DNA of 64,000 nt from Saccoglossus kowalevskii (Eukaryota > Hemichordata > Enteropneusta > Harrimaniidae): positions 86,127-150,126 of the forward strand of contig NW_003116459.1 of assembly GCF_000003605.2 (NCBI RefSeq), read 5' to 3'. This document shows, piece by piece, positions 44,301 through 63,557 of the stretch (position 1 is the stretch's first letter; each line of letters begins with the position of its first letter). The notes beneath the pieces were generated by a model. It saw only the letters and a program-made list of their open reading frames with translations, did not search any database and was not told the origin of the DNA. A program made the translations under genes and the position numbers.

Positions 44301-46188
44301 AGTCCTTGACCGCAAATTATATTTATTCATGAGAACGTACTTCTCGAATCCTAAAACATTCTGAAGTCTTGTTGATCATTATATCTACATGAACCACATG
44401 CTACTTTCAAACACTTTGCTTTCAAATGCATACACATACGTCTATTGTATCTTTTGTGGGATGGTCGATCTCAGTCAAATTAACTAGAATTTAAATTAAC
44501 ATAAACTCTGTAGCAATTAGAGTCCGTAAAACGTTTAAAATGAAGTAAAACGGAAGTGAAAGAATACTTACTTGGTGGACAAATTACAGATCATTTGTCA
44601 TGAAACATACAACAAACGCAAGCATTATAAAACACACTGCAAATACGGCATTTGTCACAAGGGCGCTTTATCAAGCATACTCCTACAGTACATTCAATCA
44701 ATCACCAAAAACAGTATCGTTAACTATGAATCCTCTTAAGAAAGTATACGAAAAATCTGTTTGATAAAACAATAGGGTTATGTCATAATAATATTTGCTT
44801 TATAAAATAGAGCTAGTGCACACGCGCCCTACATTCACAAACATGTACAGATAATTTGAGACGTACGGGAATTAGCGTTTTCGACTTTTTATTGAGAACA
44901 TACTGCTATTATAATGCTAAAACAATGTATTTATGATTAAACACATTCTTATTTGTCACTCAGTGTACAATTAAATGTATTTAAACGCGCTCATTAAATA
45001 TTCTCTAATTGTTTCTAGAAAAAAACGTTTGTTGGTACCATTTCTAATTCGATAATTTGGAAATAGGCGCCGAACAATGGTACGCATACGTACATTGTTC
45101 TGAACACCTACACTTGGTTCTATAACGATATTATTTGATTCATGTCTAATCTCACGATGAACTCTTGTTAAATTATTTGATAAAAAAAGGTCAATGACTC
45201 AATTAACATTTATATCTTTATAAAAGCAAAAAGCAATCACACATTTAGTTTCTTCATGGTGATTGATTTCAAGGCTTGGCGCACAATATACAAATAAAAA
45301 TACGCTGCGCAAATTACCTTGCACCTCTGAGAGTCAATGGGGAAAACATAATTACCAATTTCCTTCTCGTAAAAACGATTCCTACAACGTCGAAATTATA
45401 GCATTTGAATTTGTTGAAAACCTGTTAATGATCATTAACGCCACTTCATGAATTGCTGTCTCTGCCGGCGGCGGGGATTGCGGGGGGCAATCCTCTGAAG
45501 TTTATGGTTACGACCATCGCGAATTAACGAGATCTCTCTTGATAAACTGTTTCGGTTTTAACAGTCGCAGCCGTTCTAAAAAACTTAGCAACACTGAGCA
45601 CTATATTACATATTTTTATCGTGTAATTACTGTAGACCAGAAGTAAAGAGAACAAATCATAATAGACGAATACAAATATAAAACTGTATACGTATACTTA
45701 CAATGTATTATGCAAAATCATTGAATCAAGTGACCCATAATAATTGGCAGTACATAATACATAGTTTATATTATTATACATCTGTCTCCGTAAAGTTACA
45801 GCGAGCCGTAATTTTGCGGTATTGCACTGAGAATTTTCATCCTACCATATAAGGAAATGCGAATTCCAATTATGGGATGATTACGCATGTAAGCTTCCTC
45901 TAATAATAAAAACAAACATGGCTGCCACCAGGGTTTGACCGGACGCCATACAAAGATGTATACTAATAAGGTTATTACGAGGATACCTCAAAGTATTCAC
46001 TCAGACAGTACACCGTTGCACCGACCTCCGCAACCGCATATTATTTCCTACCATATTAGGAAATGCGAATTCCAATTATGAAATGATTACGCACGTAAGC
46101 GTCTTCTAATAATAAAAACAAACATGTCTGCCACCAGGGTTTGACCAGATTATTATTCTGTCGATTTTCATGTTGAAGTCGGATATTA

Positions 46189-46247
<59 letters not shown>

Positions 46248-46252
46248 ATGAA

Positions 46253-46327
<75 letters not shown>

Positions 46328-49300
46328 GAATACTGTTGGCAAAGACGCAGCTTGCTAGGTAATAAATTATTCAAATCTGTGACGCACTGCAATGCACACT
46401 GCAATGCTTATACTAGAACGCTTAGTGTAAATCGTTTGTTAGTTATATTCTTCACCAATGACGTAATGTGTGTATATATCTCTCAGTTAGTTATAGCTAC
46501 GAACGCTGTCATACCATACTAACATTAGTATTATTGATGATACCCACGTAAAACCCTACTTGCCGGCGCGCTGAGTGTCACCCACTGATTGATCAGCATG
46601 TCTATCCGTAGCCTTAAGTGTCCTCTTTCATTTGTACGCAATATGAGAGAGGGCATCTGCGTCCTAATCTGCTGTTAATCGGTATAGAAATGGTAAATGA
46701 TACCACGCCGTGTTACGATATGCCTATTAACGTATATTTCATACATATCATCCATATAAATATGCCAGGTATTCACCTCCAAGACATTTTAAATTGACTT
46801 CAACTCACTAGGAAGACAGTATTTTTCGCCAGCTAAATATACGAAATGTAAGAAGATCACGTTCTGTATGTTTATTTGTTTGAAAGTTCGTAATACAGGT
46901 TGTCCCTGCTAACAAAAGTAAATAGATAAATTATATATAGAAGTGTATCATTGTTACACTGATACAATTAATGTATTTTCATAAATAGATATACGTAACA
47001 TCCTGGTTAATATTTGGCAATCGTGGTGAATGTTAGTTACCAATCGTAGTTCTAGGTTAATTAATTTATGAATGCAGACTGAAATCGTGATATGTCCTAT
47101 CGTCATCGCATCTTTGCAGGTGTGATTTATACGCTGATCTTAATACGCTGTTTTTAGTCGGCAAATGCACCTGTTTCATTCTTCTTATCCTTCGCACAGG
47201 TTAAAATCTATTTTTATTCGTCTAATCGAATCTCAAGATTTTCGTCATAGATTTCTATCACTACATATTTACACAACAATAACGTGTTTGCGTCATGAAT
47301 TACGCACGCTGTGATACCCGCCGCTGCCGCAAATCTCGGTGGTTGAAGGTGAAATTACACGACCGACTGTAGTCGGCCGAATATAATCGCTTATGTAGTA
47401 ACTGTATGCCGGCGTTCAGTCAATCGACGTTGCCGGTGGGAATGAAACATATTTCATTTTTCGCGGTCAGTCAACTCTTTAAACCTGTTGGCCAACTACA
47501 GTTGGTCGTGTAAATACACTTTTACACATCCTATCACTTGCTCGTGTCAAGATTGTCTTGCGGATGTCTTACGCGTTAGAAACATGTCTGATTAATAAAA
47601 CACGTCATCGCCGGTATTAGCCGTGATACCATTTAATCATTCTTTACTTTATGCTCGACTTTTAGCCAGTACGTACGCCAACCCCTCCCGATGTCCGAAT
47701 TGTAACATCAAAAATACTCGAAATGGCGTGTTAATAGCCACAATGCGCCAATAAGTCAGACTGTTTCAATGAATACGGTTATGGCTATTTTTTTCTTTTT
47801 AGTCTTCTACATTTACAGTAGTGATTCCATCAGTCTGTCAGCGTGTCTGTCTGTCTGTCTGTCTGTCTGTATGTATGTATTCTACTGCTTTAGTGTACGA
47901 AACAGCATGAATGCACAGACTATAAGAACTGATTTAGTTCTCGGCACGTAATTTCGATTCGAACGACATATTATTATGCAAGTCAACCGAGAAGTCATCG
48001 CTTAGAATGTCAATTTATACTCATACTTAGTTAAGTGCTAAGAAACCTGTATTGAATTTTCGTAAAGACAAATTAATGCAACTCACTATAATGGGTGAGC
48101 GACATTATTGGGGAGTAACGCGTGTAATCGTGCACTGTTGTTAGGTAATTCACGTTATTCTAAGAACACATACTTGATGCCTGTCTATTTGTCTTATTAT
48201 ATCCGGTTCTTTCAAAGCCACCTGACTGAATCTCGCTAGTTTCTACGACCATTAATCCCGTTTATATGTGAGTTATTCAAGGCTTAATAACAAAGAGTAG
48301 CTTATGCATTGAATGCGGTTAATAGTATGAAAATAAAATGTAATAATTCACTTGTACAATGTGGTCACGAAAATCAAATTTAGGCGATGTGGTTACACAA
48401 GTTTATCGTTTGTTTACAGTATAATGGTGTGCATACAATGCTCTGTCCATATATAAACACTCTTGTTTCATTTCGGTGAAGCAATATAAGAAACCGTACA
48501 TTTAAAACAATATTGCATTATACTGTATTTAGTATTATTCCGAAATAGCAATGTTAGTGTCCTTAGACAAAAATATGGCGTCACTTTGTTTATGCCCAGA
48601 AGAAGGTAAGTTATTTTTAAATCATAAAAATCGTAGGATTATCATGCTGAACCACATAGAAATGGAGGGACATTGTTTATATATGTTGCCATTTTTTTTC
48701 CATTAATTAAATAATATGTTTAACTGAGCAATCGCCTCAACATAGGAGCTCATCGGCTCATAGTTGTTAACTACATGGAAAGTGAAAAAAAGAAATGTAT
48801 ATAAGATGTATATAATAGATATCACGCGCCAAAGATTCACAGATTGTCAAAGAATAGTTGATCAGGGGGGAAATGTGTGAAGTTCGTTACAAAACTGAGC
48901 AAACTAAGAGAAAATTGAATTCGTATCCAGTTTCATTAAAATCACAAATTTGTTAATGTTTGAGCAATTCTGTAAATCTCTAATTTCCCTGGTATAGATG
49001 ATATTGCTTTGATTACGTAATACCCACGACTACAGTCAGACTTAACTTTAATCACTGTGCTGTATTATATTCTTTACTTCACTGTTTTAGCATTTTTATA
49101 AAACCGTTTTTCTACCCCCTGAATCTAATTATACATTTTGGAAACTTTGCTTCTTTGATGCATGACTTTAATTTCCGATTGACATACAGAGCATGCATTA
49201 TACAAGAAACCGCTCTAGTGCATAACGGAACACTATATGAATCTTTGCTGGCACGATAGACAAACGGGATTTGTATTTCATAATCTGAGAAATTGGTATG

Positions 49301-55300: not shown

Positions 55301-58300
55301 ATTTTGCAATCCTACATAAAATGTCAAATGTTCGGGTAACTTAAAAAACATGCAATCGGCTGCAGCTGATAACTCAACTTATAATTCAATCAGTGGGATT
55401 TAACAAGGAAACCATTACTGGATGCAGCATATTTATCGAAATATACACAACTCATCTTTCTTTGTGTAATTCTTATTTTTAGAAATCATCAAGCTCCTCA
55501 TTGATTATGGAGTAGAGCTAGGGGACTCGTTGCTACGGGCTGTCGATGTACAACTAACTCCGGCGGTGTCGATGATATGTGGCTACATAAAGAAGAAGAA
55601 TACACCGGTGAGAATCATTAAATATATTGTTGGCGTTAACACTGTCCACATATGTCGTTTTAGGGAATATCATTTGAATATTCCAACTTTCTTATATTAA
55701 CTACCTAAATGGGTCATTATTTTGATCAATTTGTTGTGATATTCTCACATTAAAATTATACTGAATTGGCATTATCATAATTGTACGTGCAAATATTTGG
55801 ACATTAGACATAGAATTAGATTAAAGGTACAGCAACTAAATATAACATATTATTATTAGAACGGTCCATCCAGCGAATATGTCTACAAAAAACATATTTT
55901 TAACATTACACGGTCCTAACTCTTCTTATCATGAATTGCCCTATAGTGTCCATGTTAAAATGTGACGCAATCACGAGTCAATGTTTTCAATGAGTTTCGA
56001 TTCTACCTTAAATAAGCCTTATACTACCGTCGTATTAACATTTTGTGGCATCGAATCGCATGTCGATTTACTAAAATTATAAAATTTATTTTAGTATATC
56101 CTCTTTGTTACAATGACCTGTACCGCGTAAATTTACAGTTGGCAGTTCTATTTCTTATTGTAATAAAATGTTTGTTTTGTTTATCACACTGTCGTAACAC
56201 TCACTGACATATGCTGCAAACACATTTTCCTATCCTCGCTACAGATTGAGTTATCACCATTAGATAGGTAGTTAAATCATAGACCTTAGAAAGGTCTGTG
56301 ATTAATTAACCAATAATCACTCAAATGGAAAGTTGGGTTGATGCATTTCGAATTACCATAACTGTACTTTGTTAACATATTCATAATATAAGATTCGAAA
56401 TTTACGTGTGTAAATATTGATATAACATTTACATTGACGTTGGCTTAACTGCAAGAAGATCATTATACAGATTAAACTCAAACTGATAAGTGTGAGAGAT
56501 TTTTGAAATTCAGGTAGTAGGCACAAACCTATTTAACTCGCCTGACCAGAATTTGATGAAAAATGTATTTGATACACTTCACAAAAATCCATGAGTTGAT
56601 TTATTTGCGATAAAATACGCGGAGAGCAGAAGGTCTTATGACTGTAGTATTTTATTACTCTTGTACAGAACACACTACCTTTACTTGCCTAGGGCGGGCA
56701 GTGTTCTAGATTCGACAAGACACATGCACTTCCACAACCGACTGTAACTCAAACAGAATTAAGCAATTCTTTCTTTTTTTATATCTGTAATGGTGATGGA
56801 TGACCTGTGGTTTGAAAACGGAAGTGACTCGCAGTGCCATGGGAAGAAATTATGCTCATGCGCTGCTATTTATTTAAAAAAAATAGACCCTACCTTTTCT
56901 AAGACTGTATTTTATTAAAAATATAGCTGCTACGTTTTATCCAATTAACAAGAGCAGAGGTTTACACGATTTGCCCATCAATCAATTACGGGCCGCAAAG
57001 CACCGACGGTTTGGAGAGAGAGATACAACTGATTATTCACGCTGAAGTTAAGTAAACCAAGATGTGATTCTCAAATGAAAATACGGACCACTTAAATGGA
57101 CAATTTAGGGAATCAACTATACAGCGTTTTTTGTTCACGTGTTGATAGGTTCATTTAGATTTGTTTAATAAAACTGTTTAATGAAAAATACATGTTATTT
57201 GATAAAGTTGTGTGTAATGTTGTACAGGGACGTACTTTTCTTGTAATCGTAAATATAACAAAATATCTGAACTGTATCTCAGCAAAAACGTACAATCATT
57301 AAGAGTGGTAAATGTGTACAAAAAGTAGGTCGATCTTCTATTATCGCGCCTTAATTCGGTATTACTATCGTATAGCGGAAGTCTGTAAATATCAGTTATA
57401 GGAATGGTCGAATGTTCCGGGGGTTGTCACTAAAACTTTTGCTGACAATTTCCTCAGTATCTAAAGAGTAAACAAAACGTAAATGTTACTGTATATATAA
57501 TGATACAAATGCCCTAAAACAGACAAAACATTCTGACGCCGTATTTTGTAATTATTTTATTTTATTTTATTATACCTTGTAACATTAAATGTGAAATATG
57601 CTAAAATGAAAAAAAAAGTGAAATGAACACATTGTCGGGAAAATGTTGTGTAATTTTCCATCAAAAATATATATCCATGGGATGGAAATTGGACATTACC
57701 ATTCTGCTGTTGATCACTAATCGACCCCTATAATAAGGAATTGAAGTGACACTCAATACAACTATGTATTATAATATTATTATTTATTTTATTCATATAG
57801 CGCACTATATTGCGTCTCAGAGCGCTTTACAAATTTGAAATAGCAATAAAAATGGGATTGTGAAATGACAATGAATTGTGTGCCTTAAATGTTAGCCTTC
57901 TGACCATTTTATTTGTACCTGTAGGATCGACTGTACTGTCGCGCTTTCAACGGCGACTTGCACCCTGATATCACGCCCATCATATTGGCGGCGCACCATA
58001 ACAATTATGACATCGTCAAGATTCTTCTCGATCACGGAGCGAGAATCGAAGACCCGGAGTATTACAGTTTTCAAACCGAAGAATTCACGCTACAGCATTC
58101 GCTGGGGACTATTAATGTGTACCGTGCATTGGCCAGTCAGGCCTACATCTCACTGACCAGCGAGGACCCCATAACCTCGGCATTTCAGTTAAGTCACAAG
58201 GTCCGGACGCTCAGTAAACGAGACTATGAGTTTCGTTACCAGTACGAGGAGCTCGCCTCTCAGTGCGAGTCTTTCGCCGCCGAGTTACTGGGACATGTGA

Positions 58301-61300
58301 GGGATACAGATGAACAAAAAACTATACTAAACCACGATCCGGAAGAATGGGCAAGAATTGATGACATGTATGACCTTGAACCGTACAAGGTCAAGTTGGC
58401 AATCAGATTCAAGCAGAAGAAAGTAAGTGTGTATTTGTTACTATCAAGTAATTTGTTAATCTTGGTTGACCTTGACGGATAGTTCAATTAAAGACATGTA
58501 ATAGAAGAACTAGAAACATAGCCTGCTTACCTTCGAGAATGATTACAGTGATATTCTGTTTGATCTTAGTTAGGTAGATAGTTGGCGAGATACTGGAAGT
58601 ATTGTTATACATGTCATGAATACAGTAACACCTGAGTGGCGTGACCTGGCCAACGCGATCAAGGCTACTATAACCCACTGTAACATAGTACAGGTCTTCG
58701 GATATTCTGTGTTTGTGTGTGCAGCTTCCTAATTTAATACATTTCCTTGTCTTTTATTTCACAGTTCGTTGCTCATCCACATTGTCAGCAGCGATTGATT
58801 GCTATATGGTACCATGGTCTCCGGGGTTGGAGAGACTTGAGCAGAACTCGAGCGGTGTTTTTCACGTTACTTATAGGGGCATGCTTCCCTGTTCTCTCGC
58901 TTTGTTACATTGTTGCGCCGACTGGAAGGTTCGCACGGTTCCTCAGGATTCCATACGTCAAGTTTATTTGCCACACTGCCTCATCTCTCTTTTTCCTTGT
59001 CTTGTTGGGACTCCAAGCAGTTGACTTGGATATCTTTCAGGATGAGATTGAATCGCACGCGTCTGATGAATTAAAAACATTTCACGACACGAAACGAGAA
59101 TTACCGAGTTTTACCGAATGGCTTGTTGTGATATGGGTTATAGGTATGTTTGGGAAGCTTATGTGTTTCTTGGATGAGAATGTTGCTATGTAATCCAGTC
59201 AGTTCACATTGTTACCTATATGTTTCTCAGAATGTTGTGTTTAGAACACCTTAGACTGGTCGGGAGGTTGTAACCGGGATGACATGCTCTTGAAAGATGG
59301 ATGGTGATAATTAATGCATCTGCAAAATTTTCCTCAGTATATTATCAATTACACTCAATCGCTAACTGGTTATATATCTCAGTAGCCAGTAATCTATTAG
59401 CTGTGACTTTCAATTCCTGTCACGGGATAATGCTGATGCTGATATTTGTCATCAATTAATCATGTCTCTCGAAAGCCATGGATGACGAGGTTGTAAAATG
59501 GTCAAGGTTATTATAATTAATTTTTGGCACTGTATTTTGTTGTTTGTGTTTCTATAAAATGTTTCTATAAAATGTAGATGTTAAGTGTCCTAAGCAGATA
59601 TGTGTATAATTTTTATTTGTAGGATATACATGGGCTGAAATTCGAGAAGTTTGGAACAAAGGAACCCGGTATCTTGATGAGAATATCAGGTGGAAGGGTT
59701 TTGAATACGTGACACTAGCATTGTATTGGTCTTGGATAGCACTACGGGTGACAGTTTTAGTGAAGGTGAGTTCTGTCTGTAAGTGGTCGATTCCTATCTA
59801 GAGTTGAATACCTGAATGAGATCGACCATTGCCTTCGGGAGAGTCTTACATTGACTATATGATAGATTCAAAACCACTGATTCATTCACTGACCGCTGAT
59901 GAGATGAAGGTGAGGTTGGGGTTCTTATGTTGATTCTGTTCGGCGTCAAGAAGGTCTGTAATGCTATGACGTAGTCCCAAACAGGAATGCGGCTAAATAC
60001 ACTACATATACGACAATATTAGCACATGCAGTGTGTAATTTCAAATGTACATACAGCAATGGAATCATTCATTTTTAAATTAAAGGTTTCGTACGTGATA
60101 AACTAGTTTTTCAGGTCAATTTGAGATAGCAATGAAACCACCTAAATACAAAAACAAGTACTAATCAAGAACACTAGATTTATTTACACTATACTAAACT
60201 GTTTGTTACCCATCGTGATTTCTCACGTTCCATAAACGTAACCCTGCTTTTTAACGGCAGAGTGTTGATACGACAAATAGTGTTATTGGTAAACTATAAA
60301 CAAATCTATATACATATGTAATGCAATGAAATTGTTATTTCAGGCAATGGGGAGTGGTGTTGTACAGGGGATATTTGTCAACAGTACTGTCACAACTGGA
60401 GGAATCGAATTCCCTACAGATGATTCTGATTATATATCAATAGATTTCAGTAGCGGGGATGAGAGGAACTTTAGTACAGAACTGCCAGATTCTGGCGACA
60501 CTCTTGTAGAAGATATGCAACAATTAAACGCAGGACTTGAACAGCTTTTTGAGTATCAGAAACGATTATCCGAAAATATCTCGGGTAGCTTTCAATCTGT
60601 TTTACAGGAAATTAAGGTAGCTGTTAAAACTATAGAAACATCGATTAAGGACAATGCAAACGCAATTTCGTTTTCGTCATCAGCCACCTCAAGAGGGCAG
60701 TCTTCATCAATATATACTAATGTATACAACAAGGATGCCACGCGGAACGAATGGGATGCATTTGATCCTGTCTTGGTTTCAGAAGGATTGTTCGCCATCG
60801 CTAAAGTATTCAGCTTCTTGCGTGTGATTCGCGTGACAGTGGTGAGTCTACACTTGGGACCCATGCAGATCTCTCTCGGTAGGATGATGTTTGACATTGT
60901 CAAGTTCATGATGATATTCTGTTTGGTGTGGTTCGCCTTCTCCGTCGGACTTAACCAGCTGTATTGGTATTATTCACGGGAAATAACTCTGTTTTGTCAG
61001 AAAAACAATCAAACTGACTGTAAACAGCCGTTTGGAACGTAAGTATTCAGATTTTATGTTCATCGCAGTATCTCGATATGCAACATTATTACCATGCTAT
61101 TCATGCCATCTACGCAGTACAATGCCAGTACGGTATAAACATCGACACTTTTTGTTCATTTAAAAATTATTAGGTAATTTCATTTTATTAGTTCAGCTGT
61201 CGACGAAGTCGAGCGGAGCTTATAGTATTACTGATTGTCCGTCGTCCCCGTCGCCGTCGTCAACTTTACATTTTCGACTCCTTCTTAAAAACCACAAACT

Positions 61301-63557
61301 GTATAGCTGTGAAACTTGGGTGGGTGGTTCTCTCTCAGATTTGTTCATTTCGTGTGGATATGTTCAATTGTCTTATTTATAGCGAATATTTTTGTCATTT
61401 TTGGTCAAAAACGCTATTTTCGACTTCTTCTTGAAAACCGCTAGCTCAAATGCTTTGATACTAGGTATGTAGATACCCTGGGTGGACCTCCATCAGATTT
61501 GTTCATTTTGTGATGATATCTTTATTTCTATAATGAATTTGATGAATATTTTTGTCATTTTTGGTAAAAAATTATATTTTCGACTTCTCCTTGAAAACTG
61601 CTTGTCCAATTTCTTTGATATTGTATATGTAGGTATATCAGGTGGACCTCTGTCAGATTTGTTGATTTTGTGACAATATCTTCAATTCTCTATTTGTGAT
61701 AAATATTTTGGTAATTTTTGGTCAAAAACGTTATTTTCAACTTCTTCTTGAAAACTGCTAATTAAGTTTAAGTTGCTTCTTAGTCATTGCTTTCCGGGCA
61801 TGCATCACAAACAGCGGAGCTATATCAGCCGACAGGCTGCTAGTATTTAATTACATTGACTAGTAGCCTATTACATATATCTGTACACCATATTTCTGAA
61901 TCTATATTAGGTAGTTTAATACACAATAATGACCAGAAAAATAAAATAATAAATTAAGATTTCATACCATACATTCTGTCATTTAAAAAACATGTAGAAT
62001 TCCGCAGACGCTGAATACGCTGTTCTGGGCTTTATTCGGAGTTTCCGAGTTAAGAAGCCTAGATATCCAGGGCGCCAATCATTGGTTCACGGAGAACGTG
62101 GGAGGAGTGTTGTATGCAGCATATCACGTTATAGCTATAGTCGTACTCCTTAACGTATTGATTGCTATGATGAGCAACACATTCACACGTGTTGAGGTGA
62201 GTTCATAACCCTTTACTGCAAAACATTATATAAAACAGTAGTTTAGTCCAGCCTAACAATGGATATATTCTCATACCTTGCACCTTAGCTATGATTTATG
62301 CAATATTTTATCAGTAAATAAGACAACAGAGAATCAAACCATGACTTATTTTGTCAAATGAGCGGTTTTATTGCATACTATTATAATGCGAATCAGGAAT
62401 GTTTACAAATCTGCTATTATTACAGGAAGACGCCGATATGCAATGGAAATATTCACGATCCAAACTGTGGATGAGCTACTTTGAGGAAGGGTCTACGTTA
62501 GCGCCACCTTTCAACTTTCTACCTACATGGAAATCAATATGGCGGATATTCTTACAAGTAAAACAAAAATGTCTCAAACTTGAAGAGGAAATTAAAGAGG
62601 TATATGTTGTACATCTACGATTGTGAACAACTCAGTCACTTACTATTTTAAATTTGCATTTATATAGAGTAGATATAATGCCAATCTATTTCCACGTAGT
62701 CGTATCTGCTATTTGTAATTTCACTGACTTGGTCTAATCTCATGTTTTATTTTTTTATTTTTTTTGTTTAGCGAAAGTCAACGGAAGCTCATAAGAAAGA
62801 CAAAGAATATAAGGTGCGTAACATGTTATTTTAGCAACATCTATTGGGGTTTCCAGGGACTAGCACCTAAATAGCAAGTGCAGCAATATATGTGAAGTCA
62901 CAGTAGTATTTTGTTACTTTTAGAAACAGTGTATAACGTCACGGTCGATTCAAATAGACCTGTAATAATTTCAAACAGACATTCGTGCAGTCTATTACAC
63001 ATATTTGCGTTTATTTTTAGGACGTCGTACAACAGCTAGTACGAAGGTATATCTTTGACAAACGCCGCGGAAGTGACGACGATGACGTGGCACCAGGTCC
63101 TGAACCATGGATATTACAACTTAAACAAGACATGTCCGGTCTCAAATATGACATGTTCGATGCTCTTGGACAAATGGAAAACAAAATGGAAAGTATGGAG
63201 GACAAAATGGAAAATATTAAACAAACAGTTGCGGAACCGCGGATAATGTCACCTGTGCGATCACAAAGTCATAACAACCTTGTATGTCCCCCTTATCCGG
63301 AGTCAAACAGCAGTACAATGGCGGACATTCATTCACATACATTATCACCATCGACGCCATCTCTCGACATGGATAGTGACTTCGCTTCATATTTAGGACT
63401 ACCTGACGACCAACGACCCCTTATACCTTTCAAACGGTGGGGATATATCCGATATATTGACGACGGTAGCAGTATGCGGTCAAGTAGGTTAGGATCCGGT
63501 AGTTCGCACTTGTCGTTCCCACCGACGCCATCATTCGATCATAGCCACCTTGTGTAA
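29183..63557 (+). CDS. TRPC: TRPC-family cation channel gene (TRP/TRPL/TRPC4/5-like), 11 coding exons joined
   Basis: Joining the 11 exons listed below, with matching phases and GT..AG introns, gives 1034 residues. Domains in order: leader 1-46; ankyrin repeats about 50-190; TRP_2 linker region about 205-300; pre-S1 elbow 342-363; S1 376-398; S2 428-449; S3 465-486; extracellular S3-S4 loop 487-628; S4 629-650; S5 667-696; pore with LFW 726-728; S6 752-780 containing [15 protein letters not shown] box 790-795; CIRB-like basic segment 857-872; coiled coil about 886-926; Ser/Pro-rich tail. TRPC channels are tetrameric plasma-membrane Ca2+/Na+ channels, usually opened downstream of phospholipase C. 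Motifs [20 protein letters not shown] and [14 protein letters not shown] align with invertebrate TRP/TRP-gamma and vertebrate TRPC4/5. Oddities are the long S3-S4 loop, the missing zinc-site cysteines and the altered TRP box. Subfamily placement is inferred by eye. Confidence 0.93.
29313..32374 (+). other. TRPC intron 1 (3,062 bp)
   Basis: Donor GTGAGT, acceptor GAGATTTGCAG. It contains a 9-bp inverted repeat, TTAACTAGT with ACTAGTTAA, at 29623-29651, and a CpG-richer segment at its 3' end listed separately. No coding exon was recognised inside. Confidence 0.55.
32090..32358 (+). promoter_or_regulatory. Candidate internal promoter before exon 2
   Basis: This is a CpG- and G+C-richer stretch in an AT-rich intron. 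It carries a perfect palindrome GGTCACGTGACC at 32205-32216 (contains the E-box CACGTG and fits USF/TFEB-type sites) and a second CACGTG at 32333-32338. The in-frame ATG at 32359 follows directly and reads MLRFAG into exon 2 without a stop. Transcripts starting here would replace residues 1-43 by MLRFA. This is inference; no transcript evidence is available. Confidence 0.35.
32375..32557 (+). CDS. TRPC: TRPC exon 2 (residues 44-104, first ankyrin repeats)
   Basis: It encodes [20 protein letters not shown], then [20 protein letters not shown]. This is the conserved start of the TRPC ankyrin region (family pattern: E-x-FL-AAE-x-GD ... LN-x-NC-x-D-x-x-GR-x-ALLIAI). Acceptor TTTGCAG at 32374, donor GTGAGT at 32558. 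The exon enters in phase 1 and leaves one base (G), which joins AA of exon 3 to give Glu105. The reading frame is open 5' to ATG 32359, so an alternative first exon using that ATG is possible. Confidence 0.9.
36940..37398. repeat. 42-bp satellite, left part, alternating variants
   Basis: About 11 copies of a 42-bp unit containing CATATACACTACATATTATA. Two variants, marked CATCATAAC (A) and CAGCATGAC (B), run in the order ABABABABAAA, so part of the array is an 84-bp dimer repeat. Because 42 is divisible by three and the unit lacks stops in several frames, it creates long artefactual ORFs on both strands (255 and 292 residues across the gap on the + strand). Confidence 0.95.
37399..37657. other. 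Assembly gap (259 N)
   Basis: A run of N flanked on both sides by the 42-bp satellite. The missing sequence is probably more of the same array; its true length is unknown. Confidence 0.99.
37658..37809. repeat. 42-bp satellite, right part
   Basis: About 3.6 copies of the unit seen at 36940-37398, more diverged (TTCGTAAC, AGTAAACAGC and ATGCAGTATAC variants), ending at CACTACAATTTG. Confidence 0.93.
45474..45494. repeat. GC-rich 7-bp hairpin with a G5 loop
   Basis: GGATTGC (45475-45481) pairs exactly with GCAATCC (45487-45493) around five G. It follows CCGGCGGCGG, an isolated GC-rich patch in AT-rich intron sequence. Confidence 0.5.
45774..46017 (-). mobile_element. Composite MITE-like element, copy with core plus one foldback arm
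   Basis: The core at 45774-45963 has inverted ends TTATACATCT (left) and AGATGTATA (right). It carries the same interior as 1-150 and 54366-54588 (TGCCACCAGGGTTTGACC here, on the opposite strand). It is followed at once by GGTTATTACGAGGATACC at 45970-45987, which is one arm of the foldback seen complete at 54263-54360. A CArG-type CCATATAAGG lies at 45845-45854. No ORF of meaning is present. Confidence 0.75.
46047..46146 (-). mobile_element. Second, partial copy of the same element
   Basis: It repeats the interior of the neighbouring element (CCATATTAGG CArG-type motif at 46051-46060, then AAATGCGAATTCCAATTATG and TGCCACCAGGGTTTGACC) but lacks the TTATACATCT ends. It is followed 40 bp later by the (AAAT)n array. 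Confidence 0.75.
46187..46327. repeat. (AAAT)n microsatellite, about 140 bp
   Basis: About 35 units of AAAT on the + strand with one interruption (G at 46250). The minus-strand FIYL ORFs across it are artefacts. Confidence 0.97.
47348..47520. mobile_element. MITE-like element with about 30-bp terminal inverted repeats
   Basis: The left end GTGAAATTACACGACCGACT (continuing GTAGTCGGCC, to 47378) matches the reverse complement of the right end (GGCCAACTACAGTTGGTCGT, then GTAAATACAC, 47490-47519) at 26 of 30 positions. Each end also contains its own small palindrome, GACTGTAGTC or AACTACAGTT. The interior is G+C richer and non-coding. This fits a non-autonomous DNA transposon; no target duplication is obvious. 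Confidence 0.7.
47843..47880. repeat. (TCTG)n then (TATG)n microsatellite
   Basis: A short run of GTCT units passes into GTAT units. Confidence 0.9.
52307..52346. repeat. (CAGT)10 microsatellite
   Basis: Ten perfect CAGT units. The SQSVSQS peptide of the overlapping ORF is an artefact. Confidence 0.95.
53888..53970 (+). repeat. tRNA-like sequence, probably a decayed SINE head or pseudo-tRNA
   Basis: A segment with GTGCAGTAGTTAGAATATC resembles a tRNA D-arm/A box, and GTTCGATTCC at 53948-53957 is a canonical B box at about tRNA spacing. The anticodon stem TCACT/AGTGA has only a 4-base loop and the T stem does not pair properly, so it is not a functional tRNA gene. Confidence 0.4.
54163..54236 (+). 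repeat. Second tRNA-like sequence (SINE-head remnant)
   Basis: TAGTGTACTGGAAAGCGC at 54172-54189 looks like a tRNA A box region. A weakened B box, GATTCAAGGC, lies at 54224-54233. There is no convincing cloverleaf. It lies just upstream of the foldback at 54263. Confidence 0.35.
54263..54360. repeat. Foldback element, 32-bp arms, 34-base loop
   Basis: Arm 54263-54294 (AGGTTATTACGAGGATACTT onward) is the reverse complement of arm 54329-54360 with a single mismatch. The loop itself holds a small inverted repeat, CAGTA with TACTG. One arm of the same sequence borders the element at 45774-46017, so the foldback and the MITE core form a recurring composite. Confidence 0.85.
54366..54588 (+). mobile_element. 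MITE-like core next to the foldback
   Basis: Ends TTATACATCT (54366-54375) and AGATGTATAA (54579-54588) are exact inverted repeats. The interior has the CCCTGGTGGCAGCCATGTTT block shared with the copies at 1-150 and about 45.8-46.1 kb. Relative to the 45.8-kb copy it has roughly 70 extra bases near its left end and lacks the CArG-type motif. Confidence 0.75.
55483..55607 (+). CDS. TRPC: TRPC exon 3 (residues 105-146, ankyrin)
   Basis: It encodes [20 protein letters not shown] followed by [20 protein letters not shown]. It matches the second and third TRPC ankyrin helices (family pattern E-I-x-x-LLL ... GDALL-x-A). Acceptor TATTTTTAG at 55482, donor GTGAGA at 55608. It enters completing Glu105 and leaves at a codon boundary. 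Confidence 0.9.
55608..57924 (+). other. TRPC intron 3 (2,317 bp)
   Basis: No exon seen. It holds an imperfect hairpin near 56272-56308 (ATCATAGACCT with AGGTCTGTGAT) and a short repeat block at 57776-57835. Confidence 0.7.
57776..57835. repeat. Repeat block with the ATATAGCGC ... AGAGCGCTTTACAA motif
   Basis: TTTATTCATATAGCGCACTA followed by CAGAGCGCTTTACAA resembles a short motif that I recall as widespread in interspersed repeats of marine invertebrates and fish. The GCGC halves may form part of an inverted repeat. Element borders are not clear. Confidence 0.4.
57925..58422 (+). CDS. TRPC: TRPC exon 4 (residues 147-312, last ankyrin repeat and TRP_2 linker)
   Basis: It encodes [20 protein letters not shown] (residues 159-178), typical of the fourth TRPC ankyrin repeat. 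The linker-helix region then follows: [28 protein letters not shown], a helix with [16 protein letters not shown], and finally [12 protein letters not shown]. These match the TRP_2 (TRPC cytosolic) domain. Between the ankyrin and linker parts, residues 185-205 contain no cysteine, whereas most TRPC proteins have a His/Cys zinc site there. Acceptor TACCTGTAG, donor GTAAGT; both ends fall on codon boundaries. It is 498 bp. Confidence 0.95.
58765..59143 (+). CDS. TRPC: TRPC exon 5 (residues 313-438, pre-S1 elbow, S1, start of S2)
   Basis: It opens with FVAHPHCQQ, which continues the previous exon's AIRFKQKK exactly as in TRPC proteins. A hydrophobic pre-S1 elbow (342-363, ending [11 protein letters not shown]) and S1 ([20 protein letters not shown], from 376) follow. 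The S1-S2 loop is Asp/Glu-rich, then S2 starts at [11 protein letters not shown]. Acceptor TTTATTTCACAG, donor GTATGT at 59144. One base is left to make Gly439 with exon 6. Confidence 0.95.
59623..59765 (+). CDS. TRPC: TRPC exon 6 (residues 439-486, S2 end and S3)
   Basis: It encodes [18 protein letters not shown], the TRPC S2-S3 segment (family pattern G-x-x-W-x-E-x-K-x-x-W), then S3, [20 protein letters not shown]. Acceptor TTTATTTGTAG, donor GTGAGT. The family's Asn/Asp before S3 (LWNxxDF) is replaced by WKGFEY. It leaves on a codon boundary. Confidence 0.93.
60344..61038 (+). CDS. TRPC: TRPC exon 7 (residues 487-717, long S3-S4 loop, S4, S5)
   Basis: This 695-bp exon codes a large extracellular S3-S4 loop (487-628), then S4 (629-650), the S4-S5 linker [12 protein letters not shown] and S5 ending LNQLYWYY. 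The loop is acidic, has N-glycosylation sequons at Asn499, Asn528 and Asn564 and a heptad-like stretch 540-590 ([20 protein letters not shown] onward). In fly TRP-gamma the corresponding loop is about 25 residues before the WDAWDP motif; here it is about 135 before WDAFDP. After S5, Cys704 and Cys712 may form the turret disulfide known in TRPC4/5. A second acceptor inside the exon (TCTGTTTTACAG, ending 60607) is in phase with the first. Two bases (AC) carry over to exon 8. Confidence 0.93.
61039..61997 (+). other. TRPC intron 7 (959 bp), mostly a dispersed repeat
   Basis: Donor GTAAGT; acceptor AACATGTAG. A nearer AG at 62005-62006 would put a stop directly in frame, so 61997 is the boundary. 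Most of the intron is the repeat at 61195-61850. Confidence 0.85.
61195..61850. repeat. Dispersed repeat with four internal 146-160-bp subunits
   Basis: The block TTTTCGACTTCTTCTTGAAA recurs with small changes at 61271, 61417, 61577 and 61734. Each is followed by GTGGACCTC-like and CAGATTTGTTCATTTTGTG segments and TTTTTGGTCAAAAACG. The ends share AGCGGAGCT (CGAGCGGAGCTTATAGTATT near 61210 and CAGCGGAGCTATATCAGC near 61813). It looks like an interspersed element of unknown class, with internal tandem duplication. The ORF at 61482-61673 lies wholly inside and is not a gene. Confidence 0.75.
61998..62196 (+). CDS. TRPC: TRPC exon 8 (residues 718-784, pore helix, selectivity filter, S6)
   Basis: It encodes [17 protein letters not shown] with the TRPC-specific LFW motif (726-728), then S6 with [19 protein letters not shown]. 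In Drosophila TRP the aligned filter reads LFWASFGLVDL, where the Asp (D621) sets Ca2+ permeability; here Glu735 aligns with it. Donor GTGAGT at 62197; the exon ends on a codon boundary after Glu784. Confidence 0.95.
62426..62599 (+). CDS. TRPC: TRPC exon 9 (residues 785-842, TRP helix)
   Basis: It encodes [20 protein letters not shown], then [20 protein letters not shown]. This is the TRP helix with TRP box 1 (QWKYSR in place of EWKFAR) and TRP box 2 (APPFN). Acceptor TATTATTACAG. The donor GTATAT at 62600 is weak. Reading through it adds EVYVVHLRL and stops, so retention would truncate the protein after the TRP helix. Confidence 0.93.
62772..62813 (+). CDS. TRPC: TRPC exon 10 (residues 843-856, 42-bp micro-exon)
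   Basis: Fourteen highly charged residues, [14 protein letters not shown], lie between a T-rich acceptor ending TTTGTTTAG and donor GTGCGT. Both ends fall on codon boundaries, so skipping would keep the frame. It sits where TRPC proteins have a variable basic linker between the TRP helix and the CIRB segment. Confidence 0.8.
63021..63557 (+). CDS. TRPC: TRPC exon 11 (residues 857-1034 and stop, CIRB region, coiled coil, tail)
   Basis: It starts [17 protein letters not shown], matching the calmodulin/IP3-receptor-binding (CIRB) segment of TRPC proteins (family pattern x-x-x-LV-R/K-RYV). [15 protein letters not shown] follows, like the conserved LKQDISS-x-R-x-E coiled-coil start, and then regular MENKME / MEDKME heptads to about 926. 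The last 108 residues are Ser/Pro-rich with SP and TP sites (MSPVRS, LSPSTPS, FPPTPS). The final residues SHLV do not form a class I PDZ ligand because position -2 is His. The stop is TAA at 63555-63557. Confidence 0.93.
   Translation, partial: DVVQQLVRRYIFDKRRGSDDDDVAPGPEPWILQLKQDMSGLKYDMFDALGQMENKMESMEDKMENIKQTVAEPRIMSPVRSQSHNNLVCPPYPESNSSTMADIHSHTLSPSTPSLDMDSDFASYLGLPDDQRPLIPFKRWGYIRYIDDGSSMRSSRLGSGSSHLSFPPTPSFDHSHLV

Follow-up and report, generated by a model that had tools for sequence, protein, structure and literature searches.

A long S3-S4 loop with a heptad stretch in a TRPC channel gene of the hemichordate Saccoglossus kowalevskii, and long loops in related genes of the same genome

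TRPC channels include the alphaTRPC subgroup of TRPC1, TRPC4, TRPC5 and TRP-gamma, as a passage of PMC13402157 defines it. In TRPC3, a long third transmembrane segment (S3) and the linker between it and the fourth (the S3-S4 linker) build an extracellular domain proposed to act as a sensor (part of PMC5967863). An excerpt of PMC12677897 describes how the S3-S4 linkers of the four SK2 subunits meet over the pore and constrict its mouth, and a section of PMC6013512 reports that hERG split within this linker gates much like the wild type, so that a cut there need not kill the channel. In ENaC, extracellular polybasic cleavage sites and cleavage during maturation are described (passage of PMC8791634), and the very large extracellular loop of TRPP and TRPML is located, in the relevant passage of PMC8539334, between the first two transmembrane segments. 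Here we describe a TRPC gene at the 3' end of a 64,000-nucleotide stretch of Saccoglossus kowalevskii DNA (hereafter the window: contig NW_003116459.1, positions 86,127 to 150,126, within a 233.6-kb contig of a 572-Mb genome), in which 136 residues lie between S3 and S4, and we report long loops at the same place in most of the related exons of this genome.

Surveys of cephalopod and scallop TRP channels describe TRPC clades (PMC13402157, PMC8539334), and the TRPC-clade passages of both mention no long S3-S4 loop. The scallop survey, in the same passages, reports two TRPCs of invertebrates that belong to none of the vertebrate groups, one of them high in the eye, and names an EWKFAR-type TRP box as a TRPC feature. 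S3-S4 is not mentioned in a paper on TRP conservation (PMC9242649). Among the open-licence papers listed by our searches, no title or opening of an abstract described a long S3-S4 loop or a convertase site in a TRPC channel; one title links the furin prodomain with calcium entry through Orai and TRPC6 (PMC8037623).

The loop in the window gene and in its paralogues

The window gene is a TRPC channel by its ankyrin and TRP_2 domains, its Ion_trans core and its TRP box, and a tetrameric cation pore is predicted for it. In Pfam, TRP_2 (PF08344) scores 60.5 bits (cut-off 27) and Ank 26.2 bits (cut-off 21.1). Exon 7 matches Ion_trans with 35.7 bits against a cut-off of 25, under which the S6 exon by itself stays at 22.5. 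The spliced core, from S1 to the TRP box, scores 313 bits against TRPC4a in the PDB, 302 against TRP-gamma, 294 against TRPC5, 283 against TRPC6, 261 against TRPC3 and 222 against TRPC1, and the TRP box region that follows S6 aligns to IEWKFARTKLWMSYF of TRPC4. The 136 loop residues of the open, spliced model correspond to the insert of 135 residues between S3 and the WDAFDP motif that a first-pass annotation had noticed from the letters alone. That annotation put the loop of TRP-gamma and TRPC4/5 at 25-60 residues, a figure that proved too large, as the aligned spans of the PDB sequences give about 9 residues each for TRPC1, TRPC4 and TRPC5 and about 18 for fly TRP-gamma (TRPC4 from printed alignments, the other three from span lengths; TRPC3/6 align in two pieces). 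By this measure the loop is indeed unusually long for a TRPC, exceeding those of TRP-gamma and TRPC1/4/5 by about 118-127 residues. Aspartate and glutamate make up 15% of it, lysine and arginine 7%. The sequons recorded earlier as Asn499, 528 and 564 were found at loop residues 13, 42 and 78; three sequons do not represent an enrichment, 2.07 being expected from composition (P 0.34). An open frame of 132 codons arose by chance in one of 20,000 sequences simulated from local introns and in ten of 20,000 simulated from the loop's own dinucleotides, and these simulations, along with the resemblance to paralogue loops described below, make a chance open frame or a retained intron unlikely.

To name genes individually we use W for the window gene and L numbers for its paralogues in the same genome. 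Reading 13 regions around TRP_2 matches and four more gave S4 exons with a readable loop at nine of these loci, L009-L015, L017 and L023, and a genome search with the S4-S5 peptide (at least 14 matches, one of them weak, with E 0.0098, on C3976) added L032, L033 and L034. Twelve of the 13 firm TRPC S4-S5 exons found in this manner carry a long S3-S4 loop, of 65-178 residues: 178 in L012, 160 in L011, 139 in L023, 136 in W, 130 in L034, 122 in L033, 114 in L017, 112 in L010 (or 117 by a second candidate acceptor), 111 in L014, 102 in L015, 74 in L013 and 65 in L032. The sole short loop, of 15 residues, belongs to the TRPC4/5-like L009, which aligns here without a break to TRPC4, TRPC5, TRPC1 and TRP-gamma of the PDB. 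Each loop was taken to end at the WD motif, or at what corresponds to it, and its acceptor was picked by hand from the candidates. In all 13 exons the loop follows a phase-0 acceptor; no S3 exon was found for L032, L033 or L034. No S4 exon was seen in the 11.9 kb read for L016 (together with L022), which is therefore outside the 13. With long loops at the same place in 12 of 13 exons, the trait belongs to the family in this genome, and the idea that the loop is peculiar to the window gene is rejected. The paralogue most like W is L012, with 77% identity in S4-S5; it sits some 100 kb upstream, in the same orientation.

The earlier remark that heptad-spaced residues at about 540-590 look coiled-coil-like was borne out. 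The best heptad register of the window loop was equalled by 2 of 200 shuffles over 28 residues (loop residues 52-79), by 1 of 200 over 35 (52-86) and by 12 of 200 over 42 (49-90), while the hydrophobicity power at 98-106 degrees over residues 51-106 was equalled by none of 2000. AlphaFold2, run on the exon peptide, returned a single helix in the loop, at residues 51-106, plus helices for S4 and S5. Its predicted local distance difference test score (pLDDT) is 62-74 by block over residues 51-100, 49 over 101-110, and under 50 at 1-50 and 106-144; we take this model as a secondary-structure prediction and not as a fold. From S3 to S4 the sequence thus reads as an acidic tether, about 35-56 residues that are heptad-spaced or predicted helical, and a Ser-rich tether to S4. 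The loop appears to have the features expected of a coiled coil, with a heptad repeat over at least four heptads and a continuous helix of modest confidence, and its oligomerisation is putative. As for known domains, Pfam was run on five of the 12 long loops (W, L012, L010, L011 and L023) and none reached the cut-off, the best match of the window loop being Use1 (E 0.0042, 17.2 bits against a cut-off of 38.3); its best PDB match was otoferlin (E 0.13). A genome search for a second copy of the window loop returned only the loop itself at E<=10, in a search insensitive enough to miss the paralogue loops too.

Some of these loops resemble one another. Over 36 loop pairs, each compared with 300 shuffles (L032-L034 being outside this test), the score was equalled by none for W-L012 and L010-L011, by one for W-L017 and L012-L017, and by two for W-L010, and the recent pair L014-L015 was likewise within 0-2 of 300. 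L011-L014, L011-L023 and L013-L023 were equalled by 5-8 of 300, and all other pairs by at least 19. When shuffling preserved the heptads, W against L012, L017 and L010 was equalled by 4 of 1000 in each case. The best registers of W, L012 and L017 all have Gln at heptad position a, Leu at the next d, and the Asn of a sequon at g; in W this is the third sequon, at residue 78, which is also found in L012, L011 and L017. The motif Q-x5-N-[ILVF]-[ST] occurs in 4 of the 12 long loops (W, L012, L011 and L017, in these as Q-x5-N-[IL]-[ST]) and in as many in none of 3000 shuffle sets, a probability that is flattering since the motif was defined after viewing the loops. In an unrooted tree with one vertebrate sequence, W, L012, L010, L011, L023 and L017 are separated from L009, mouse TRPC4, L013 and L014 by a branch with support of 100/99; in a tree of S4-S5 only, the long-looped L013-L015 group with the short-looped L009 and mouse TRPC4 (88/90). 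Because L013-L015 group with short-looped genes and many pairs are dissimilar, one origin of all long loops is not established.

Other features of the paralogues deserve mention in their own right. The S6 segment of L013 (L013:4312-4497) aligns poorly midway, as if a frameshift or an unrecognised intron lay inside it. L015 (L015:3592-3861), on contig C1752 and in the opposite orientation to its relative L014, has an in-frame stop in S4 and could be a pseudogene or reflect a sequence error. In the L033/L034 pair, on C934, S4-S5 is nearly identical (2 residues differ in the aligned stretch), and the loops differ by 8 residues in length and by many substitutions. Divergent TRP_2-bearing, TRPC-like clusters, with 13 matches on C3976 (L021) and four on C4610 (L020), represent a second TRPC-like expansion; in the three examples read (L020, L021 and the similar L019, on C346), S1-S5 lie within a single open frame and a long S3-S4 loop was not seen.

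How the loop may be read

The improbability of a chance frame, the family-wide occurrence of long loops, the helix and heptad statistics and the resemblance among some loops, with their common Gln and sequon placement, together lead us to read the loop as a genuine module, for which the TRPC3 extracellular domain and the SK2 linkers offer precedents. It is very probable that a long loop containing a helix is expressed. The most likely role for it is that of an extracellular assembly or cap module, although we consider an assembly or cap function somewhat doubtful in itself; the complete reading, in which the insert is a real module on the extracellular side, belonging to a family of TRPC channels of this animal, and forms a coiled coil for subunit assembly or a cap, is put forward tentatively, as just short of an even chance. 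According to it, the tethers would let the four helices of a tetramer come together outside the membrane, close to the fourfold axis, where they would form a parallel coiled coil that favours the assembly of matching subunits and may cap the extracellular mouth of the channel. Gln at a core position would set the register and the choice of partner. Since loop helices and the core Gln would in this manner set assembly, paralogues would differ in their assembly partners and in the coupling of S3 to S4.

Several observations weigh against this coiled-coil module. The AlphaFold2 model is a single-sequence model of a monomer of one exon, with a mean pLDDT of 53 and a predicted template modelling score of 0.26, and in a tight bundle a glycan at heptad position g would be placed next to the core. 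W is not significantly like L011 (65 of 300 shuffles), L023 (71), L014 (122), L015 (109) or L013 (75), nor are its first 88 residues significantly like L032, L033 or L034, and the alignment of W with L010 passes along the acidic tether and leaves the two Gln residues unpaired. No significant heptad score was obtained for L011, L013, L014 and L015 (L032-L034 being outside the scoring), and the scores of L010 (7 of 200, at one window length) and L023 (10-18 of 200) are borderline, so that the support for one common coiled coil extends to W, L012 and L017 among the genes compared. In addition, the ratio of nonsynonymous to synonymous substitution rates (dN/dS) in the loop is three to four times that in S4-S5, and a position weight matrix (PWM) for acceptors, built from 26 acceptors of the window gene and its paralogues, scores a second acceptor within the loop, with the exon starting at 60608, at 4.0, as against 2.4 for 60344, both being in frame.

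The fact that heptad core, Gln and sequon recur together between diverged paralogues, and the similarity of the loop of W to those of L012, L017 and L010, speak against the alternative that the loop is a fast-evolving, glycosylated and mostly unstructured spacer, tolerated since neither shortness nor rigidity is required of S3-S4 links, with a helix that has no specific partner. We consider such a spacer rather unlikely, in spite of the low pLDDT on both sides of the helix, the wide range of loop lengths, the lack of significant similarity in most of the 36 pairs and the near-normal gating of hERG cut at this linker (section of PMC6013512), all of which would suit it. It would also be suited by dN/dS values of 0.39 in the loop and 0.12 in S4-S5 for L033/L034, and of 0.59 and 0.15 for L014/L015, which are point estimates of unassessed significance from pairs aligned as proteins, with whole-codon gaps by construction; the stop in L015, which may be decaying, weakens the latter pair. 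Both loop estimates are nevertheless below 1, which favours the module, and frames stay open across the length differences in both recent pairs; the loops look like translated sequence that is less constrained than the core. A different alternative concerns the exon boundary: 60608 might be the usual start of the exon, with only the last 48 loop residues translated and 60344-60607 an intron or a rare isoform, which would leave a loop without the heptad core. The in-frame position and higher PWM score of that acceptor favour it, as does the weak similarity of the first 88 loop residues (60344-60607) to L012, the closest paralogue (77 and 73 of 2000 shuffles). Low scores, however, also occur among the 26 acceptors themselves (six of them reach at most 2.6 when left out of the matrix), the paralogues have exon starts at comparable upstream positions, and 60344-60607 is open and encodes a peptide resembling the loops of L017 (1 of 2000) and L010 (4 and 2 of 2000), with no significant similarity to the seven other loops tested. 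We therefore regard 60608 as the usual start as very unlikely. The first-pass annotation had named splicing out of most of the loop as what would overturn it; the resemblance of the first 88 residues to the L017 and L010 loops argues otherwise, and a shorter isoform, with a 48-residue loop through the acceptor at 60608, is possible from the sequence.

The paralogues raise a further reading, which is compatible with the module or could replace it. Six of the 12 long loops (L010, twice, L011, L014, L015, L017 and L023) contain the furin-type motif R-x-[KR]-R, whereas shuffling the same loops gives a mean of 0.28 and none of 5000 sets reaches 6; when one of each recent pair is removed, 5 of 10 loops have it, again in none of 5000 shuffle sets, and it is absent from the joined core segments of the window gene, of eight paralogues and of mouse TRPC4. 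Across the six paralogues the site strings, with a slash after the motif, are RDRR/AV, RVRR/AV, RKKR/SP, RRKR/MS, RLKR/MS and RRKR/SN. The S3-S4 loop could accordingly be a proteolytic control segment, cut by a convertase in several paralogues into two-chain channels, as in ENaC maturation, W and its tandem neighbour being uncut. The placement of the sites fits in part, as they come after the best heptad stretch in L010, L017 and L023 and before S4 in L010, L011, L017 and L023; in L011, however, the best heptad window, which is not significant, overlaps the site, and in L014 and L015 the site lies near the loop start and precedes, instead of following, the aligned segment. The genome has five P-domain (PF01483) matches, one of them with an internal stop, and these, like the tolerance of hERG for a cut in the S3-S4 linker (as given in part of PMC6013512), favour this idea. 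Conversely, the motif is missing from the 136-residue window loop and from those of L012, L013, L032, L033 and L034, and the presence of a motif is not cleavage. At least two changes are required to explain the sites on the S4-S5 tree, which allows more than one order of gain and loss. Proteolytic control as the meaning of the loop seems to us quite unlikely. Rather unlikely, too, is the broader picture of an invertebrate deuterostome TRPC subfamily with an extracellular coiled-coil S3-S4 module, in which about half of the genes would be convertase-sited, with mature channels of two chains split in the S1-S4 domain and held by the extracellular helix, and W would be the uncleaved form. As an extension of the module, proteolytic maturation in some paralogues is attractive but unproven, cleavage being putative.

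Gene model and other observations

The model comprises six exons from 57925 to 62599, each with an AG acceptor and a GT donor, which give 696 open codons when spliced; a start codon was not located and exons beyond 62599 are not resolved. Exon 7, which holds the loop, has the acceptor ttgttatttcag/GCA and the donor GGAAC/gtaagt (the slash marking the boundary), and joins the S3 exon, which ends at 59765, in phase 0. Upstream, from 55473, an additional exon-like segment of 43 residues matches the region of the tandem neighbour. Coordinates are collected in Table 1.

Table 1. Features of the window gene (window coordinates) and of loop exons in paralogues
Feature	Position	Strand	Basis or remark
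Exon, last ankyrin repeat and TRP_2 domain	57925..58422	+	Pfam on open frame 57925-58482; gtag/.../gtaagt
Exon, pre-S1, S1 and first half of S2	58765..59143	+	Alignment to TRPC4 from residue 300; splice sites
Exon, end of S2 and S3	59623..59765	+	TRPC4 alignment up to residue 459-461; end GTGAAG/gtgagt
Exon 7, S3-S4 loop, S4, S5 and start of pore region	60344..61038	+	Open frame, Ion_trans, PDB TRPC matches, splice sites
S3-S4 extracellular loop, 136 residues	60344..60751	+	S3 exon end to W of WDAFDP
N-terminal tether, loop residues 1-50, sequons NST and NFS, probably disordered	60344..60493	+	pLDDT <50
Sequon Asn13-Ser-Thr (Asn499 of the first-pass annotation)	60380..60388	+	
Sequon Asn42-Phe-Ser (Asn528 of the first-pass annotation)	60467..60475	+	
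Predicted continuous helix, loop 51-106	60494..60661	+	AlphaFold2; helical periodicity
Heptad core, loop 52-86, a/d string L-M-L-L-L-Q-L-I-S-V	60497..60601	+	1/200 shuffles
Motif Q72-x5-N78-I-S, Gln at heptad a, sequon Asn at g	60557..60583	+	Also in L012, L011, L017
AG of possible in-frame alternative acceptor; exon from 60608, 48-residue loop	60606..60607	+	PWM 4.0
Ser-rich C-terminal tether to S4, without furin-type site	60662..60751	+	pLDDT <50 over 106-144
WDAFDP motif, S4 start	60752..60769	+	Aligned with WDMWHP of TRPC4, WDAWDP of TRP-gamma
Exon, pore region and S6	61998..62196	+	TRPC4 alignment; splice sites
Exon, TRP box region	62426..62599	+	TRPC4 alignment; splice sites
Furin-site-bearing loop exons	L010:4531-4866, L011:7525-8010, L023:1043-1465; L014, L015, L017 loop exons		

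Elsewhere in the window, a tetranucleotide-type repeat at 46056-46370 reads YLFIYLFI in several minus-strand frames. In the assembly, the mitochondrial contig C4830 (L043, L044; 17,037 bases) has TGA read as Trp, AGA at a Ser position of nad1 and AAA at Lys positions, and ATA stands at several positions usually conserved as Ile. On this contig nad2 precedes nad1, cox1 is encoded on the opposite strand, and the gene order from cox2 to cytb is largely vertebrate-like. Code and gene order together suggest a hemichordate.

Comparison with described channels

If the module is real, an S1-S4 domain carrying an assembly helix would offer a direct handle on the choice of partner among TRPC subunits and on whether extracellular events can gate these channels, and the convertase-sited members would be natural candidates for split channels. 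In having extracellular polybasic sites in a cation channel, the six paralogues recall ENaC, although the window gene lacks such a site and cleavage of the paralogues is putative. The folds of ENaC and TRPC are unrelated. SK2 offers a precedent for S3-S4 linkers that interact above a pore, capping in the window gene being what we infer; its linker, however, is a two-stranded beta-turn (Gly231-Asp253) in a K+ channel, and that of the window gene is a predicted helix in a TRP channel. TRPC3 and TRPC6 share with the window gene an extracellular feature derived from S3 or the S3-S4 linker, and core scores of 261-283 bits, but there it is a long S3 helix with a cavity, and here a separate predicted helix between tethers. 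Closest among described channels are TRPC1/4/5 and TRP-gamma, the best PDB matches of the window gene, which have in common with it the ankyrin/TRP_2 N-terminus, S1-S6 and the TRP box region, and, in the case of TRPC4 and TRP-gamma, the WD-x-[WF]-[DH]-P motif before S4. Where these channels pass from S3 to S4 in about 9-18 residues, however, the window gene uses 136, with a heptad stretch among them.

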